DNA of 36,230 nt, taken from positions 1 to 36,230 of the IMG/VR virus record IMGVR_UViG_3300037475_000094. One strand, 5' to 3'. The notes below the pieces were generated by a model. It had not been told where the DNA came from. It did not search any database and was given only the letters and a program-made list of their open reading frames with translations. Made by a program: the position numbers and the translations under genes. Positions within the stretch are counted from its first letter, which is position 1. The number at the start of each line of letters is the position of its first letter. Source of the stretch: a virus. Positions 5,167-31,024 of this stretch are shown here, piece after piece.

Positions 5167-5816
5167 AATCCCCCCGCAAGTCCCAACCGAAAGCGAAGGC
5201 GCTGACCAAGGCGGTCAGGGTGGCTATCAAGTATGACCCACCGTGCGGATACCATATCCGTGACGCTTGCGCTGAGGCCGTGAAGATGGCCCGCACCAAT
5301 GGTCGCAATGTCGCGTTCTCCTTCAATGGCGTTGACCTGATCGCCAAGCCCACCACGAAGCCTGCCGCGTTGCAGCGAAGGTTTTCTGCCGGCATGGAGG
5401 CCAACTCGAAGGCTTACCGTGAATCGCCGGAGGGCATCGCCTCTGCCGCGGCCCGCGTGAAAGAAATCGCCACCAAGCAGTGGTTGCATGACACACTAGT
5501 TGCCGGACTTCCCGCCACGCTCACGCAGCCCGAAGCTCGAATCGTTGAGTGGGTGCGCGAGTTTCAAGACCCGGCAGATGACATTGGCGTGGTGAGAGAC
5601 TTCCCCGCCGTAATCGCGGCTTTTGAAAGCGCTGGCTACAAGGCAAACGACTGCACTAACCTCCCGCGTGAACGCTACAAGGAACGCTCCATCATGGGCC
5701 GATACATTATCGGCCAAGCCATTTCGTGCATGAAGTCGGGCCTCCCTCCCCACCAGATCACCCACACCTTCGTTGAGCAGTATTTCAACTCCCCCGCCCA
5801 TGAAGCCCACCACTAA
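5163..5816 (+). CDS. Conserved phage hypothetical protein
   Basis: A 217-residue protein whose N-terminus (YHIRDACAEAVKMAR, then VAFSFNGVDLIAKP) I associate with uncharacterised phage proteins. The rest is helical and mixed in charge, with a C-terminal GRYIIGQAISCMKSG segment. No enzyme motif is visible. It overlaps the upstream stop by ATGA and the next gene by 17 nt. Among the larger early genes, so possibly important for takeover or replication, but that is only inference. Confidence 0.65.
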   Translation: MKSPRKSQPKAKALTKAVRVAIKYDPPCGYHIRDACAEAVKMARTNGRNVAFSFNGVDLIAKPTTKPAALQRRFSAGMEANSKAYRESPEGIASAAARVKEIATKQWLHDTLVAGLPATLTQPEARIVEWVREFQDPADDIGVVRDFPAVIAAFESAGYKANDCTNLPRERYKERSIMGRYIIGQAISCMKSGLPPHQITHTFVEQYFNSPAHEAHH

Positions 5817-5967
5817 AATCTACATTCTCGGAATCGTCTTTTGCTTGATAGGGGCGATTCTTGCCGACCTCCACATCTTCTTCACGGGGGCGATGTGCGT
5901 CGTGCTCGGATTCCTCATTATTATGATTGGCCCAATGGTATTTGACCTTTTGGAGGATAAAAAGTGA
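5800..5967 (+). CDS. Two-helix membrane peptide
   Basis: A 55-residue protein with two predicted membrane helices: about 6-22 (IYILGIVFCLIGAILA) and about 28-49 (TGAMCVVLGFLIIMIGPMVF), with charged ends. Size and topology resemble small holins or other phage membrane peptides, but its place in the early block, far from any lysis gene, argues for caution. I took the ATG at 5800, within the end of the upstream gene. The stop at 5967 precedes the promoter at 5996. Confidence 0.6.
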   Translation: MKPTTKIYILGIVFCLIGAILADLHIFFTGAMCVVLGFLIIMIGPMVFDLLEDKK

Positions 5968-5995
5968 AGCCTGACACCACGCAAGCAGGGGGCGC

Positions 5996-6032
5996 TTGAC
6001 AAACCCAAGCATTAGGCCGATAACCCAAGCAT
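5996..6032 (+). promoter_or_regulatory. Sigma-70-like promoter with direct-repeat operator
   Basis: TTGACA (5996-6001), a 17-nt spacer, then GATAAC (6019-6024): a perfect -35 and a 4/6 -10. The expected start site is about 6031, exactly an ATG, with a second ATG at 6036. A direct repeat AACCCAAGCAT occurs at 6002-6012 and 6022-6032, 20 bp apart (about two helical turns). It covers the spacer, -10 and start, which suits a repressor or activator site. Confidence 0.7.
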
Positions 6033-6035
6033 GAC

Positions 6036-6188
6036 ATGCCAATCAAAACCAAACGATTCTACAGCCGTATCGGAAGCGCCGGCAGAGCCCGTAATTCGGA
6101 TGCCCAACAAGCGGCATCTCGCAATAACGGAAAGCTCGGCGGAAGACCGAGAAAGGTTCTGGTCATTCGTAAGCAACGAGCCACATGA
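6036..6188 (+). CDS. GKLGGRP microprotein 1
   Basis: A 50-residue basic protein that overlaps the start of the HNH gene in another frame. It contains NSDAQQAASRNNGKLGGRPR, which closely matches NTPAQNEARKRNGKLGGRPP in the protein of 8331-8471. Two copies of one motif in one genome support real coding. The motif resembles short bacterial proteins with AQxxAxxxNGxxGGRP; their role is unknown, possibly nucleic-acid binding. The ATG at 6036 lies 5 nt after the predicted transcription start, so translation would be nearly leaderless. Confidence 0.6.
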   Translation: MPIKTKRFYSRIGSAGRARNSDAQQAASRNNGKLGGRPRKVLVIRKQRAT

Positions 6189-6585
6189 GAAAGGCTGCCA
6201 TCTGTGGACCGGGAGGCTCGACCCAAAAGGCTACGGCTTTTTCAATGTCGGGGGACGCGATGTTTTCGCCCATCGGTTCGCGTTCTTTGTCTCCTTTGGA
6301 CATATCAACGCTGATCTATTTGCCTGCCATAGTTGCGACAACCCTCAATGCGTTAACCCTGACCGCATATTTCTCGGGACTACCACCGAGAATATGCGGG
6401 ATGCCGTCAGCAAAGGACGATTCAAGGGCCAGCAGCAACGTTTCTGCAAACGCGGCCATGAATTTACCCCTGAGAACACCATCACGAAGCGCAAGCGTCC
6501 CGGTCAGCGGGAATGCCTTCTTTGCCAGCAATTCCATGAACGCAAACGATTCAAGAAATGGGAACACCTCAACTTACTAAAATGA
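6100..6585 (+). CDS. HNH endonuclease, HNH_3 type
   Basis: A 161-residue HNH endonuclease, of a different family from the three paralogues on the minus strand. It shows RFWSFV, CHLWTGRLDPKGYG, AHRFAF (58-62), then CHSCDNPQCVNPDRIFLGT with metal-binding Cys and the catalytic region, and TTENMRDAVSKGR, all typical of phage HNH_3 proteins. A second Cys/His cluster (FCKRGH and ECLLC) follows at 115-142. The frame is open back to an ATG at 6031, but the conserved part begins near residue 18 counted from 6100, and 6036-6188 encodes another protein. Either start is possible. Overlaps gene 6582 by ATGA. Confidence 0.8.
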   Translation: MPNKRHLAITESSAEDRERFWSFVSNEPHEKGCHLWTGRLDPKGYGFFNVGGRDVFAHRFAFFVSFGHINADLFACHSCDNPQCVNPDRIFLGTTTENMRDAVSKGRFKGQQQRFCKRGHEFTPENTITKRKRPGQRECLLCQQFHERKRFKKWEHLNLLK

Positions 6586-7412
6586 ATACTGAAATACCGC
6601 AGTGGGCGCTCAAGGCGGCGAACGAGATTTGCTTCCGGGAGGAAGTGCATCTTAACGAACCAAGGGTTGCCGCCATCATCGCCCGCTTCGCCCCACAATC
6701 GGCCACCGCGAGCACGCAGGAGGGGGAACTGGAAAAGCTCAGGGCCACGCTCGAAGCCTACCGCAAGCGGGCTCGCAAACTCTACACGCCCGACGTTGCC
6801 GCGACCAAGATCGCCGAGGATGAGGCACGGATGCGCGATGTGGACAAGCGGCTAGAGGTCGCTGAAGCCGTTCTGCGTTACTACGGGTTGGAGGTCGTCA
6901 ATGAAATCAGCGAAGGCGTGAAGATGCTAGTGACTGACGAGAAGGATGGCGTGAAGCAATGCGCTTACGTTCGCGTGATTCCCGGTGGCGAATACGCCAA
7001 GGACCAATCCGAGCTTGCGCTGTTGCGCCCAATCCCACCGCCCCCGCCTGCTACGGGCGAACCGCCGGCCAAGGAGGGGGAGACGCCCCGCGTGGACAGT
7101 GCCATGTTCGACCGCGAAGAAGTCTGGGTGCATACGACGCACGAGGATAGGTTCGTTTATGTGCAGTTCGCCCGCCAACTCGAACGCGAGCTAACGGCGG
7201 CGAAGGCGGAACTGGCCGAGGCGCAACTCCAAAAGCAGGGGCCGTTGATTCAGTTGCAGGCCATCAAATCCACGACCCAGCCGCTCATCCAAGAGAACGA
7301 CGCCCAGCGGGATCGCATTGCCGAACTAGAGCAGCACATCGTCACTATAAAGACCCGCCTCGCCCAACTGGAAGCCGCTGCCGACGAGGGGAAGAAACCC
7401 CAGAAAGGGTAG
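6582..7412 (+). CDS. Coiled-coil protein, hypothetical
   Basis: A 276-residue protein of unknown function. It starts at the ATG overlapping the HNH stop (ATGA). Two coiled-coil stretches are evident: about 44-100 (EGELEKLRATLEAYRKRARK and on) and about 190-265 (ARQLERELTAAKAELAEAQL; later DRIAELEQHIVTIKTRLAQL). Between them lies a mixed domain and a Pro-rich linker (RPIPPPPPATGEPP). The shape suggests a scaffold or tether. No catalytic motif seen. Confidence 0.6.
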   Translation: MNTEIPQWALKAANEICFREEVHLNEPRVAAIIARFAPQSATASTQEGELEKLRATLEAYRKRARKLYTPDVAATKIAEDEARMRDVDKRLEVAEAVLRYYGLEVVNEISEGVKMLVTDEKDGVKQCAYVRVIPGGEYAKDQSELALLRPIPPPPPATGEPPAKEGETPRVDSAMFDREEVWVHTTHEDRFVYVQFARQLERELTAAKAELAEAQLQKQGPLIQLQAIKSTTQPLIQENDAQRDRIAELEQHIVTIKTRLAQLEAAADEGKKPQKG

Positions 7413-7459
7413 TTAGTTTACCCAGAACGCCCCGTAACCCCCCCAACCCACTCAACACC

Positions 7460-7699
7460 ATGCCGCCACCCGATTCCCAAGCCGCCGTAGCCAATGGGGC
7501 GCGCCCGTCCTGCCAATGCTGGTTCTCCCTCAACACCGGCCCGAACTGGGAATGTGAGAACTGCGGACTACCTCGCGTCCCTCCCGGTGCTTCGCCCACC
7601 AGACCCCTCCCAGCCGATTCCAAACCCCTTCCTGAGCCTTTCCTGCCGGGGGGGCCAACCCTATCCAGACCAAAGAACTGCTTTCTAGGGCAAATCTAG
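7460..7699 (+). CDS. Putative zinc-ribbon microprotein
   Basis: A 79-residue frame with SCQCWFSLNTGPNWECENCG near 17-36: CxC followed by CxxC, a plausible zinc knuckle resembling double zinc ribbons. The C-terminal half is Pro-rich and low complexity, which weakens the case. The ATG follows CAACACC, like other starts here. The open frame is compatible with chance, so confidence is moderate. It is one of several Cys-rich small proteins in the plus block. Confidence 0.45.
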   Translation: MPPPDSQAAVANGARPSCQCWFSLNTGPNWECENCGLPRVPPGASPTRPLPADSKPLPEPFLPGGPTLSRPKNCFLGQI

Positions 7700-7796
7700 C
7701 CTATTGGCGGGGCGATAAGGTGGGCGCTTCGATCTGCATGTGGGTTCTGCTTTACACCAACACGGGCGGTCGTCCTGAACTTACCGAAGCCCACAA

Positions 7797-7905
7797 CTAG
7801 ATCGTTTCCCAAGCCGTCATAGCCGCAGCGGGCATTACAAACTAGGTGGGCGTTTTATTTGATTCGGGGCTTGCTATATCCTGAGCGGTCAGGTTTAGTT
7901 ACGCC
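7797..7905 (+). promoter_or_regulatory. Composite control region R1 ahead of gene 7906
   Basis: Order of modules: CTAGATCGTTTCCCAAG (7797-7813), GCGGGCATTACAAAC (7828-7842), AGGTGGGCG (7844-7852), GGGCTTGCTA (7867-7876). TTGCTA (7871-7876), 17 nt, TTTAGT (7894-7899) forms a moderate sigma-70 promoter whose expected +1 is 7906, the A of the ATG. So gene 7906 would have a leaderless mRNA, the same geometry as at 5996-6031. Modules recur at 2908 (R0) and 8488 (R2). Confidence 0.6.
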
Positions 7906-8082
7906 ATGAAATCTTACTCCTTCAAGTATCGCCACACGGCCAAGAGGACCGTTCGCAGCCATGTCGAACGCCTCAACAACGACGCCGAGGCTATTGAGTT
8001 CGCCCGTGGCCTCCGCATGGGTGGGGGCTATCGGGTCGAAATCTTCAACGGAAAACGCCAAGTCGAATACCGCAACTCCTAA
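7906..8082 (+). CDS. Small basic protein, leaderless start
   Basis: A 58-residue basic protein (MKSYSFKYRHTAKRTVRSHV and on) with alternating strand/helix/strand pattern: RTVRSHVERLNNDAEAIEFARGL reads as a helix and YRVEIFNGKRQVEYRN as a C-terminal hairpin. No family recognised. The predicted transcription start falls on the ATG. It is followed after 4 nt by gene 8087, so the two are likely co-expressed. Confidence 0.6.
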   Translation: MKSYSFKYRHTAKRTVRSHVERLNNDAEAIEFARGLRMGGGYRVEIFNGKRQVEYRNS

Positions 8083-8086
8083 TCCC

Positions 8087-8347
8087 ATGAAACTCACAGA
8101 TCATCAAGACAGCGCCATGCGCTCGCTCTCAAATCATGTTGGCAAAACGGTTGAAGTCCTGACCTCTCAATATGATGCCAACGTTTCGCCTGCCTATCGT
8201 GCTCGCTCAGTCGGAACATTCAAAAGCGCGGCCCTTCGGGGTCTGGAAATCAAAGGCTTTATCAAGATCGTGGATGCCTACTGGAAAGGCGCTACCGTCA
8301 CCGTTCTAAAGTGCCACCCCGATTACGCCAATGACCACCAAGCCTAA
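8087..8347 (+). CDS. Hypothetical protein
   Basis: An 86-residue protein starting MKLTDHQDSAMRSLSNHVGK. The C-terminal half (KGFIKIVDAYWKGATVTVLK) looks like the beta wing of a winged helix: helices first, then GLEIKGFIKI and a beta hairpin. So a small DNA-binding winged helix is possible. I chose the ATG at 8087, 4 nt after the previous stop. It overlaps gene 8331 by 17 nt. Confidence 0.6.
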   Translation: MKLTDHQDSAMRSLSNHVGKTVEVLTSQYDANVSPAYRARSVGTFKSAALRGLEIKGFIKIVDAYWKGATVTVLKCHPDYANDHQA

Positions 8348-8471
8348 GAATACCGCCGCTGTGGCCCTCGGACGCATGGGGGGAAGCCGGAACACCCCCG
8401 CCCAGAACGAAGCCCGTAAACGCAACGGAAAGCTAGGGGGCAGACCTCCCACCAAGAAACCCCAATTGTAA
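8331..8471 (+). CDS. GKLGGRP microprotein 2
   Basis: A 46-residue basic protein: ALGRMGGSRNTPAQNEARKR then NGKLGGRPP and a Lys/Pro tail. It shares the AQ..A...NGKLGGRP motif with the 6036-6188 product. Short proteins of the form ALGRxGGxxxTxAQ..AR..NGKxGGRP are widespread and uncharacterised. It ends the 7906-8471 mini-operon just before control region R2 and the structured RNA. Confidence 0.6.
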   Translation: MTTKPKNTAAVALGRMGGSRNTPAQNEARKRNGKLGGRPPTKKPQL

Positions 8472-8487
8472 AATTCCCACCCCGCAG

Positions 8488-8605
8488 CTAGTTCGTTTCC
8501 CAAGGCAATCCGTCCGGCCTAGTGAATCAGGGGAGGTGGGCGATTCGCCCTAATCTTTTCCATTAGGGGCTTGACCGTAGGGGAAAACCTGATTCTTTCT
8601 CGCTC
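8488..8605 (+). promoter_or_regulatory. Control region R2, putative promoter of the structured RNA
   Basis: Diverged copy of R1: CTAGTTCGTTTCCCAAG (8488-8504; 16 of 17 bases as at 7797), then AGGTGGGCG 46 nt further (47 in R1), then GGGGCTTG. The palindrome GGGCGATTCGCCC lies at 8538-8550. TTGACC (8571-8576) is a good -35; the -10 position (8594-8599, TCTTTC) is poor. By the spacing seen in R1 (first T of -35 plus 35), transcription would start at 8606, the first base of hairpin 1. Confidence 0.5.
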
Positions 8606-8699
8606 GCTGAATGTGAGTCAGCCGTAAGTTTCATTTTGGGAGGGGAGACCCTTTCGAGAAGCCCGGTCCAGCTCACATCTGGCCGGGTTTCTTATTTTA
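8606..8699 (+). ncRNA. Three-hairpin structured RNA with kissing loops
   Basis: No open frame. H1: GCTGA/TCAGC (8606-8610/8618-8622) with loop ATGTGAG. H2: 9 pairs between 8636-8644 and 8649-8657 (three of them G-U) capped by GAGA, a GNRA tetraloop. H3: 9 pairs with one bulged T (8662-8671/8679-8687), loop CTCACAT, then a T-rich tail. The H1 and H3 loops are exact reverse complements over all 7 nt, as in kissing loops of plasmid antisense RNAs. I know of no named RNA family that matches. Expression is inferred. Confidence 0.65.
8662..8699 (+). terminator. Intrinsic terminator of the structured RNA
   Basis: GC-rich stem CCCGG(T)CCAG / CTGGCCGGG with loop CTCACAT (8672-8678), extended by G-U and two A-U pairs at the base, followed by TTTCTTATTTTA (8688-8699). 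This is a good rho-independent terminator for plus-strand transcripts, and doubles as hairpin 3 of the RNA above. Confidence 0.8.
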
Positions 8700-9043
8700 G
8701 GCCGCGATTATCGAACGAACCTACTGTGAGCCCCGCAAGTTCTTTGGGTGTGTGTGAATGCGGTGTAACTCCGAGGTAGCGCACAAGGAAATGGCAGACG
8801 GGAGCTAGGAGGCCCGTCTCTCTGTGTGAGTAGCGACAAAGACGGGAGCAACGAGGGGCCAAACCCACCCGAGCGAAAACATGGCATTGGTCTTCGGACT
8901 GGTGGGAGGGAGGACTTAATTTGAGTCTGACTTCTTGGCGCTCTCTTCAACTCATGCAAGTGCGCATGGGGGAAGGGGGCTTTTGGCAGGAGAGAGAAGC
9001 TTAATTTGAATGAGTCTGACGAACAACTAACCAACTAAAAGAA
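8700..9043 (+). other. Noncoding structured stretch ahead of gene 9044
   Basis: A 344-nt gene-free stretch, possibly a long leader or second RNA. AGACGGG (8796-8802) can pair with CCCGTCT (8813-8819), which can instead pair with a second AGACGGG (8840-8846): mutually exclusive hairpins. CCCACC/GGTGGG (8864-8869/8901-8906) brackets a c(TTCG)g hairpin at 8890-8899. CTCTCTT/AGGAGAG (8941-8947/8988-8994) encloses CATGC/GCATG (8953-8957/8964-8968). A direct repeat, CTTAATTTGA then GTCTGAC, flanks that element (8915-8931 and 9000-9020). No promoter is obvious. The minus-strand frame across it looks like a shadow. Confidence 0.4.
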
Positions 9044-9343
9044 ATGAATGTTACTCTGGAATGGGAAGAATTATCGGGAGACGGGAAAAGAGCTTATGTG
9101 AACGCCAAGGAGAACGATGGATGGCACGACCTACGAATTGAGGTCGATACGGATGATGTGGATAGCGACCATGCTAAGGCCGCCATGCAGACGGTCATTG
9201 ATCGATGCAATGGGTGGGAAGAGATGAAGGCTCATTTGGCCCGCTCTGTTACACTGCTTGAGCAGTATCAGGATTCGTCAATGGGGCAGTCAAAAAACCT
9301 TCGCACTCATTTGAAAAACTGCCATAAACTGATTTCACCATGA
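9044..9343 (+). CDS. Hypothetical acidic protein
   Basis: A 99-residue protein with an acidic N-terminal half (LEWEELSGDGKRAYVNAKEN; EVDTDDVDSDHAKAAM) and a helical, more basic C-terminus. No family recognised. The ATG at 9044 follows AACTAAAAGAA, which is A-rich but without a clear Shine-Dalgarno. It comes straight after the 344-nt structured stretch, whose fold could control it. Overlaps gene 9340 by ATGA. Confidence 0.65.
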   Translation: MNVTLEWEELSGDGKRAYVNAKENDGWHDLRIEVDTDDVDSDHAKAAMQTVIDRCNGWEEMKAHLARSVTLLEQYQDSSMGQSKNLRTHLKNCHKLISP

Positions 9344-27092: not shown

Positions 27093-27128
27093 CGTGAAGG
27101 AGAAACGCTCACTAGCCGAGCGGTGGAA

Positions 27129-28010
27129 TTACTCCGCGACGTTGGTGATGCGGGTAAGATTACCCGGATTGCCAATCTGGCAGCCATAGATGAAGCACCA
27201 TTCCGTGCGCTGCTGCGTACCGTCATAGTAATCGCGGAACTGAATCGTAAGGCCGGTTGCCGGGTCAGTGATGTTACGCACCTCACCATACCAGTTGCGG
27301 GGAAGCACCGGGGGGCGAATCGCCAGCAAGAGTGCCTGCGGGGCAAACGCGATAGCCGCCAGATTATTCGTGGTCGGGATGGTGCCGTTCCACTCGTGAA
27401 TCTGGTAGTTATACACCAGCGGGATAGCGCCCGTGCGAATCGTATTACCCGGGCCGTAGGCATAAGCCGCCTGAACGCTGGAATCCTTCTTCAGAACTTC
27501 AGCATAGTTCGGGGAACAGATGATATGGCGGGGTTCAGTCGGAACCTTAAGGGCCGTCTGGATGCGCCCGATGCGGGCCACGTTCGCGGCAGTGAAGTCC
27601 GCAGCGGCAATAACGTTGTTGCTGGAGAAGTTCGCAACTGTCACCAGCGCAAGCTGGGTCGCCATGACATTCTCAAACAGCGCATTGATGGCCGGCTTGA
27701 CGAACATCTGTAGAAGCTGAACGTCCGAGAATGACATTTCCGTATCCGTGAACTGCACCGGAACACCCACATACTTGTCGAGCGTGATCGTGCGGCTGAC
27801 GGTGTTTGAATCAATCGCGGTCTTTGCGGAGGCGAAGTTTTGAACCGTAAGGGCGTTGGGATAACGGGTAGTCACCGCGTTGCCGTAGGTCGAAACATCA
27901 TTGGAGAAATCCGTCCACATCGTAGTGACGGGAAGCGGACTCGAAAGCAGAGCTTCCAGCGTAAGCTGGGAGATGCGGGTCATGAAGACACCATTTAGTG
28001 CGTTAGCCAT
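27129..28010 (-). CDS. Major capsid (coat) protein
   Basis: A 293-residue protein in the coat position, right after the protease/scaffold gene. Features typical of HK97-fold coats: an N-terminal helix with ISQLTLEALLSSPLPVTTMW, a beta/E-loop-like part (SRTITLDKYVGVPVQFTD), a long spine-helix-like stretch (LLQMFVKPAINALFENVMAT) and an A-domain (RHIICSPNYAEVLKKDSSVQ). Closest in feel to P22-type or related coats of this size. A strong terminator follows. Confidence 0.8.
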   Translation of the reverse strand: MANALNGVFMTRISQLTLEALLSSPLPVTTMWTDFSNDVSTYGNAVTTRYPNALTVQNFASAKTAIDSNTVSRTITLDKYVGVPVQFTDTEMSFSDVQLLQMFVKPAINALFENVMATQLALVTVANFSSNNVIAAADFTAANVARIGRIQTALKVPTEPRHIICSPNYAEVLKKDSSVQAAYAYGPGNTIRTGAIPLVYNYQIHEWNGTIPTTNNLAAIAFAPQALLLAIRPPVLPRNWYGEVRNITDPATGLTIQFRDYYDGTQQRTEWCFIYGCQIGNPGNLTRITNVAE

Positions 28011-30945: not shown

Positions 30946-30981
30946 GGGGTGGCCGCAGGGTCTTACGCCCGCAACCACCCC
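30946..30981 (-). terminator. Terminator closing the moron cassette
   Basis: Outer stem GGGGTGG/CCACCCC (30946-30952/30975-30981), with an inner GC(A)GGG/CCCGC stem, followed on the minus strand by TTCTTCTTT (30937-30945). It comes 43 nt after the end of the glycosyltransferase-like gene 31025-31771 and before gpW. Together with the promoter at 32607-32634 it brackets three genes. Confidence 0.75.
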
Positions 30982-31024
30982 CACAACATGGACGCCCTTG
31001 CGGACGCCATGAATAATGCTTAGG

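Follow-up and report, generated by a model that had tools for sequence, protein, structure and literature searches.

Terminators and kissing loops

Intrinsic terminators are normally treated as a self-contained hairpin followed by a U-tract. Pairing between loops, or "kissing," is known from other RNAs. In the plasmid copy-control RNAs ColE1 RNAI/RNAII and R1 CopA/CopT, about 6 to 7 complementary bases are located in two hairpin loops; in the purine and guanidine-II riboswitches, two hairpins of one RNA are joined by loop-loop pairing; and the pRNA of phi29 possesses two complementary loops, the letters of which vary among relatives, and acts between molecules in packaging. The open-access literature on kissing loops at terminators yielded only riboswitches, sRNAs, and engineered attenuators. 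A terminator linked to an upstream hairpin of its own through paired loops was absent from it, which is weak evidence. The terminator and the kissing loop are each known, and their combination as a recurring feature of one lineage appears to be undescribed.

A candidate for this combination is located in the 36,230-base virus record analyzed here, which in its full length is referred to as "the window," and recurs in related phages. As in an intrinsic terminator, an intergenic GC-rich hairpin precedes a U-rich tail, but the loop is large, with 6 to 7 nt, and can pair with that of a dedicated hairpin upstream, while ordinary terminators of the same and other phages are without a complementary upstream loop. 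The number of complementary bases across the two loops agrees with the ColE1/R1 copy-control RNAs, in contrast to which both loops are on one strand and in one transcript. The sequence-only reading had drawn a link to these RNAs. It is not supported so far: no antisense partner was seen, and scoring both strands of 8300 to 9100 with the sigma-70 consensus gave no promoter-like site. Two hairpins of one RNA pair by their loops as in the riboswitches, but there is no conserved ligand-binding core and no Rfam match, the loop letters change freely, and one partner is the terminator itself. The phi29 pRNA is likewise a phage RNA with complementary loops of varying letters; here, however, the loop partner is a terminator. 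The Rfam search gave no match in the window or in any of three relatives, nor in positions 8450 to 8900 when E values as high as 5 were allowed.

The unit in the early region

The following features were assigned at positions 8606 to 8699 of the window.

8606 to 8622, plus strand: H1, partner hairpin for kissing; 5 bp, loop AUGUGAG (8611 to 8617), from the fold
8638 to 8655, plus strand: H2, between H1 and the terminator; 7 bp, loop GAGA, from the fold
8656 to 8693, plus strand: H3, hairpin of the intrinsic terminator; stem of 11 bp and 4 bp parted by a bulge, loop CUCACAU (8672 to 8678)
8688 to 8699, plus strand: U-rich terminator tail, from the sequence; overlaps the 3' end of the H3 stem

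All three hairpins, the last of them a terminator, had been read from the sequence before and were reproduced by the fold, in which the centroid and the minimum-energy structure were the same (−39.5 kcal/mol, z = −4.5, with none of 200 shuffled sequences equally stable). H3, which has a bulge of one 5' base at 8667, is a GC-rich hairpin of −23.2 kcal/mol with UUUCUUAUUUU, as is characteristic of intrinsic terminators. The loops of H1 and H3 are exact reverse complements over 7 nt, again as claimed and visible both in the sequence and in the fold, and the H1 loop was accessible when this hairpin was folded alone.

A predicted start site on the first base of H1 had also been claimed. No sigma-70-like promoter was found between 8300 and 9100 on either strand, with only the sigma-70 consensus scored, which leaves this start site without a promoter match. 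The idea of a free-standing RNA is weakened in addition by a unit in the relative G001 that begins 7 nt after an open reading frame and by the copies of the unit 3' of the capsid gene, both described below.

Related phages and the unit behind the capsid gene

A small clade comprising G003, G001, G005, G002, and G004 was obtained from a terminase scan. For long stretches G003 is nearly identical to the window, with 99.8% identity in the region 5785 to 8533 of the window, a sharp break at 8533/8534, and no identity directly thereafter. This abrupt divergence places the 8606 element just past a recombination junction and indicates that the RNA was swapped as a block together with the genes that follow it. 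At the homologous locus, G003 contains a similarly built but unrelated terminator (stem of 9 bp and 4 bp with a bulge between them, loop GUCGCA), which ends about 16 nt before the gene for a replication initiation protein. A hairpin upstream of it with the sequence UGCGGC would form six pairs with GUCGCA, one of them G-U (p = 0.0035). This unit was counted as doubtful because its H1, in the best fold, keeps most of the matching loop closed, and opening it would cost about 4.6 kcal/mol. The early unit of G001 (L137:3153-3230; p = 0.001 by shuffling) follows the same three-hairpin plan as the one at 8606 with wholly different letters, its paired loops being GUACUAA/UUAGUAC.

The window phage possesses a second unit, on the minus strand.

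27129 to 28010, minus strand: major capsid gene (PHROG 283), just upstream of the second unit
27106 to 27122, minus strand: H1 of the second unit; loop GGCUAGU, 6 nt past the capsid stop codon
27067 to 27093, minus strand: terminator hairpin of the second unit; 10 bp, loop AUUAGCC

The product of 27129 to 28010 was assigned to the PHROG 283 major head protein with an E value of 2.7e−25. The terminator, again a GC-rich hairpin (−16.0 kcal/mol) with a U-rich tract, follows the capsid gene and precedes the next gene of that strand, and its loop forms seven pairs with that of H1, one of them G-U. The capsid-site unit is a two-hairpin form without H2, and the H2 loop of the early G001 unit is AUAG, so that the GNRA hairpin, regarded before as a defining part, is not one; a conserved GNRA receptor was rejected since H2 is not conserved.

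In G000/G003, G004, and G005/G001, the unit is present in the intergenic space that follows the capsid gene, and G002 has a degenerate version there. The loop pairs were GGCUAGU/AUUAGCC (p < 0.0005) and, in the relatives, GGCAGU/ACUGCC(C) (p = 0.002) and GGCAAU/AUUGCC (p = 0.0015). Among the relatives, the H1 stem and the terminator stem vary in sequence and retain their pairing. In G002, H1 has an 11-nt loop, and only GGCG/CGCC remains, with 4 loop pairs and a p value of 0.14. The sequence-only reading had proposed that loops drifting without keeping complementarity would speak against it. By this measure G002 fails and G003 is doubtful, while the loops of the early G001 unit and of the capsid sites of G004 and G005 differ and nevertheless match their own partners with 6 to 7 pairs. 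Complementary loops that stay complementary when their letters change are thus present, except for G002 and with G003 in doubt. A conservative alignment of the capsid-site loops, with a gap in each of them, reduces the variation to a single pair lost on both sides together and a single pair that alternates among G-U, G-C, and A-U; judged from these three distinct loop pairs, covariation at the capsid site is real but thin. The early units count as separate evidence, since their loop sequences are entirely different.

Outside of the clade, distant protein similarity to the Verrucomicrobia phage P8625 (34% identity for the capsid and 25% for the terminase) suggests a verrucomicrobial host for the window phage. 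A terminase-alignment scan of genome contigs identified one 3.2-kb contig in a Gemmatimonadetes metagenome-assembled genome, with no further terminase match among 298 Gemmatimonadetes genomes, and the corresponding capsid-alignment scan identified no relative.

Chance expectation and distribution

A probability of 1 in 16,000 had been given for the complementarity of the loops at 8606, which holds for one preset pair. When any hairpin within 60 nt upstream was allowed as a partner and the upstream sequence was shuffled, the p value was 0.0005. Since the window contains about 19 terminator-like hairpins, the chance is about 1% for the window alone, and the observation at 8606 by itself is suggestive, not conclusive.

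Terminators with a loop matching the loop of an upstream hairpin were therefore counted in larger sets. The six related phages contain 109 terminator-like hairpins, four of which scored at least 6.5, compared to 0.25 in shuffled sequences; these four matches represent three distinct units, one of which was counted in two near-identical phages. The capsid site of G004 was chosen by its position and not from the scan output. The matches listed by a loose ATGTGAG...CTCACAT pattern search over viral contigs were informative only as background DNA. Other viral contigs (3.4 Mb) had units with a score of at least 6 at 3 of 306 terminators versus 0.8 expected, considering good terminators with a loop length of at least 6 nt. 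In viral terminators generally, loop-matched units occur near chance frequency. Two scan units were discarded as chance matches, one in L149 that was not formed in the predicted fold and one in P8625 inside the annotated gene gp37. A candidate on the minus strand of the unrelated viral contig L119 (about 6280 to 6180), in which the upstream-hairpin loop CUUCCAC matches the terminator loop GUGGAAG, directly precedes a DNA helicase gene and looks genuine in its position.

Terminators of the clade with short loops had no upstream loop partner, nor had the strong terminator at 30946 to 30982 on the minus strand of the window with the loop CGUAAGA. These partnerless terminators indicate that a loop partner is not required for termination in these phages. 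The exact complement of the latter loop, UCUUACG, occurs about 57 nt downstream in the next reading frame, probably by chance because relatives have tetraloop terminators in that region.

Specificity and geometry of the loop pairs

When the seven loop pairs were reassigned in all 5040 ways, only the true assignment reached the observed pairing total. Pairing in trans between the two units of the window phage was rejected, with scores not exceeding 2.5. The complementarity ends at the edge of the loop or at most one base past it, which fits kissing and not a mutually exclusive antiterminator, and an antiterminator formed by strand exchange was rejected for this reason.

A stacked rod of H1, the kissing helix, and H3 would be 50 to 78 angstrom long. 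If each linker nucleotide spans about 6 angstrom, the linker is long enough to bridge this rod in every one of the seven units; textbook values were used for the length of a base pair and of a nucleotide. The longest terminator stems go with the longest linkers. The closed intramolecular fold proposed earlier is possible on these grounds, and we regard a kissing fold in cis as likely.

Interpretation of the unit

Selection on the pairing between the H1 loop and the terminator loop is well supported by the comparison of the related sequences. The common denominator of the units would be a terminator at a transcript boundary. We assign a probability of about 0.55 to a lineage-specific intrinsic terminator, the loop of which kisses an upstream hairpin in cis and thereby sets the termination strength or guards the 3' end. 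H1 would be transcribed about 26 to 50 nt before the terminator hairpin, and its 6- to 7-nt loop would then kiss the complementary terminator loop of the same RNA, resulting in an almost coaxial, closed 3' end. This may tune the strength of the terminator or shield the finished 3' end from exonucleases. We infer that kissing occurs in the cell and influences termination strength or 3'-end stability. At the capsid site, where another gene follows in the same direction, incomplete termination would in addition determine how much capsid protein is made relative to the downstream proteins, and the 8606 unit may mark the end of a transcript in the early region.

The same loops may instead pair between two RNA molecules, leading to dimers or chains as in dimerizing sRNAs or the phi29 pRNA rings. 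Exact complementarity would serve loops of two molecules no less than loops of one, and each H1 loop fits the terminator loop of its own unit specifically, but the linkers are long enough for cis pairing in all seven units and the local concentration of the cis partner should be far higher. Moreover, the capsid-site unit, being 3' of a gene, belongs to a long mRNA, and the terminase of the window is of the lambda GpA and not of the phi29 type, which does not agree with a phi29-type packaging motor; pairing between molecules is accordingly rather improbable. A regulatory role of the 8606 unit as a stand-alone RNA or as a leader attenuator of a replication gene, with the loops as a switch comparable to plasmid rep-leader attenuation, would agree with the G003 terminator just ahead of the replication initiation gene and with the L119 candidate ahead of the helicase gene. 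The next plus-strand open reading frame of the window is, however, about 345 nt away from the unit, the capsid-site units are not rep leaders, the sigma-70 search of 8300 to 9100 gave no match on either strand, and no alternative terminator/antiterminator pairing is visible since the complementarity does not run into the stems. We regard this role as unlikely.

Coincidence, meaning ordinary terminators next to ordinary upstream hairpins, has to be considered because the units are few, one relative fails and another is doubtful, and chance loop matches occur in other viral DNA (the 3 of 306), one of them not formed in the predicted fold. It would have to account for five clean units with 6 to 7 pairs and individual p values of at most 0.002, including two units from the corresponding capsid site in other genomes, against a scan expectation of 0.25, and is quite unlikely. 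A protein or an antitermination complex similar to put or nut may read H1 and the terminator loop, with complementarity as a by-product of a shared recognition sequence. The H1 loops at the capsid site indeed have GGC in common and the terminator loops GCC; the loops of the early units, in contrast, have no letters in common, neither among themselves nor with those at the capsid site, leaving no common recognition sequence and making this explanation highly improbable.

The self-kissing terminators may, tentatively, represent an undescribed class, restricted to one lineage, in which a lock in cis fixes the termination strength or seals the 3' end of the mRNA, and which would be used where major transcripts meet or end, for example behind the capsid gene. 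If so, structure outside of the terminator hairpin is under selection, and a tunable terminator part with programmable loops would be on offer.

Additional observations

In more distant relatives, no unit was found after the capsid gene, and the same was true for the cultured phage P8625. In the distant phages, the capsid gene is followed by a hairpin CCGGCC-ACCGCTCGC-GGCCGG with a TTTAT tail.

L187, 9868 to 9982: post-capsid hairpin region
L179, 13864 to 13978: post-capsid hairpin region
L173, 18433 to 18554: post-capsid hairpin region
L180, 8482 to 8596: post-capsid hairpin region
L177, 18461 to 18575: post-capsid hairpin region
L176, 12382 to 12498: post-capsid hairpin region

The loop GCUCGC of this hairpin is complementary to GCGAGC, an invariant segment that follows at a distance of about 60 nt within a region enclosed by the pair CGUGUG/CACACG. 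This may be a terminator-loop pseudoknot, with no covariation in the two segments.

Downstream of the 8606 unit, the plus strand has no obvious gene for about 345 nt, at positions 8700 to 9043. These positions contain the repeat AGACGGGAGC at 8796 and 8840 and two more TGTGAG words, and possibly constitute a replication or control region. Upstream of the unit, the module AGGTGGGCG is present in three copies at 7718, 7844, and 8534 of the window, and a 24-nt repeat, CCCACAACTAGATCGTTTCCCAAG, and a variant of it are located at 7790 and 8481. These repeats between 7718 and 8534 may represent an operator or a recombination site.
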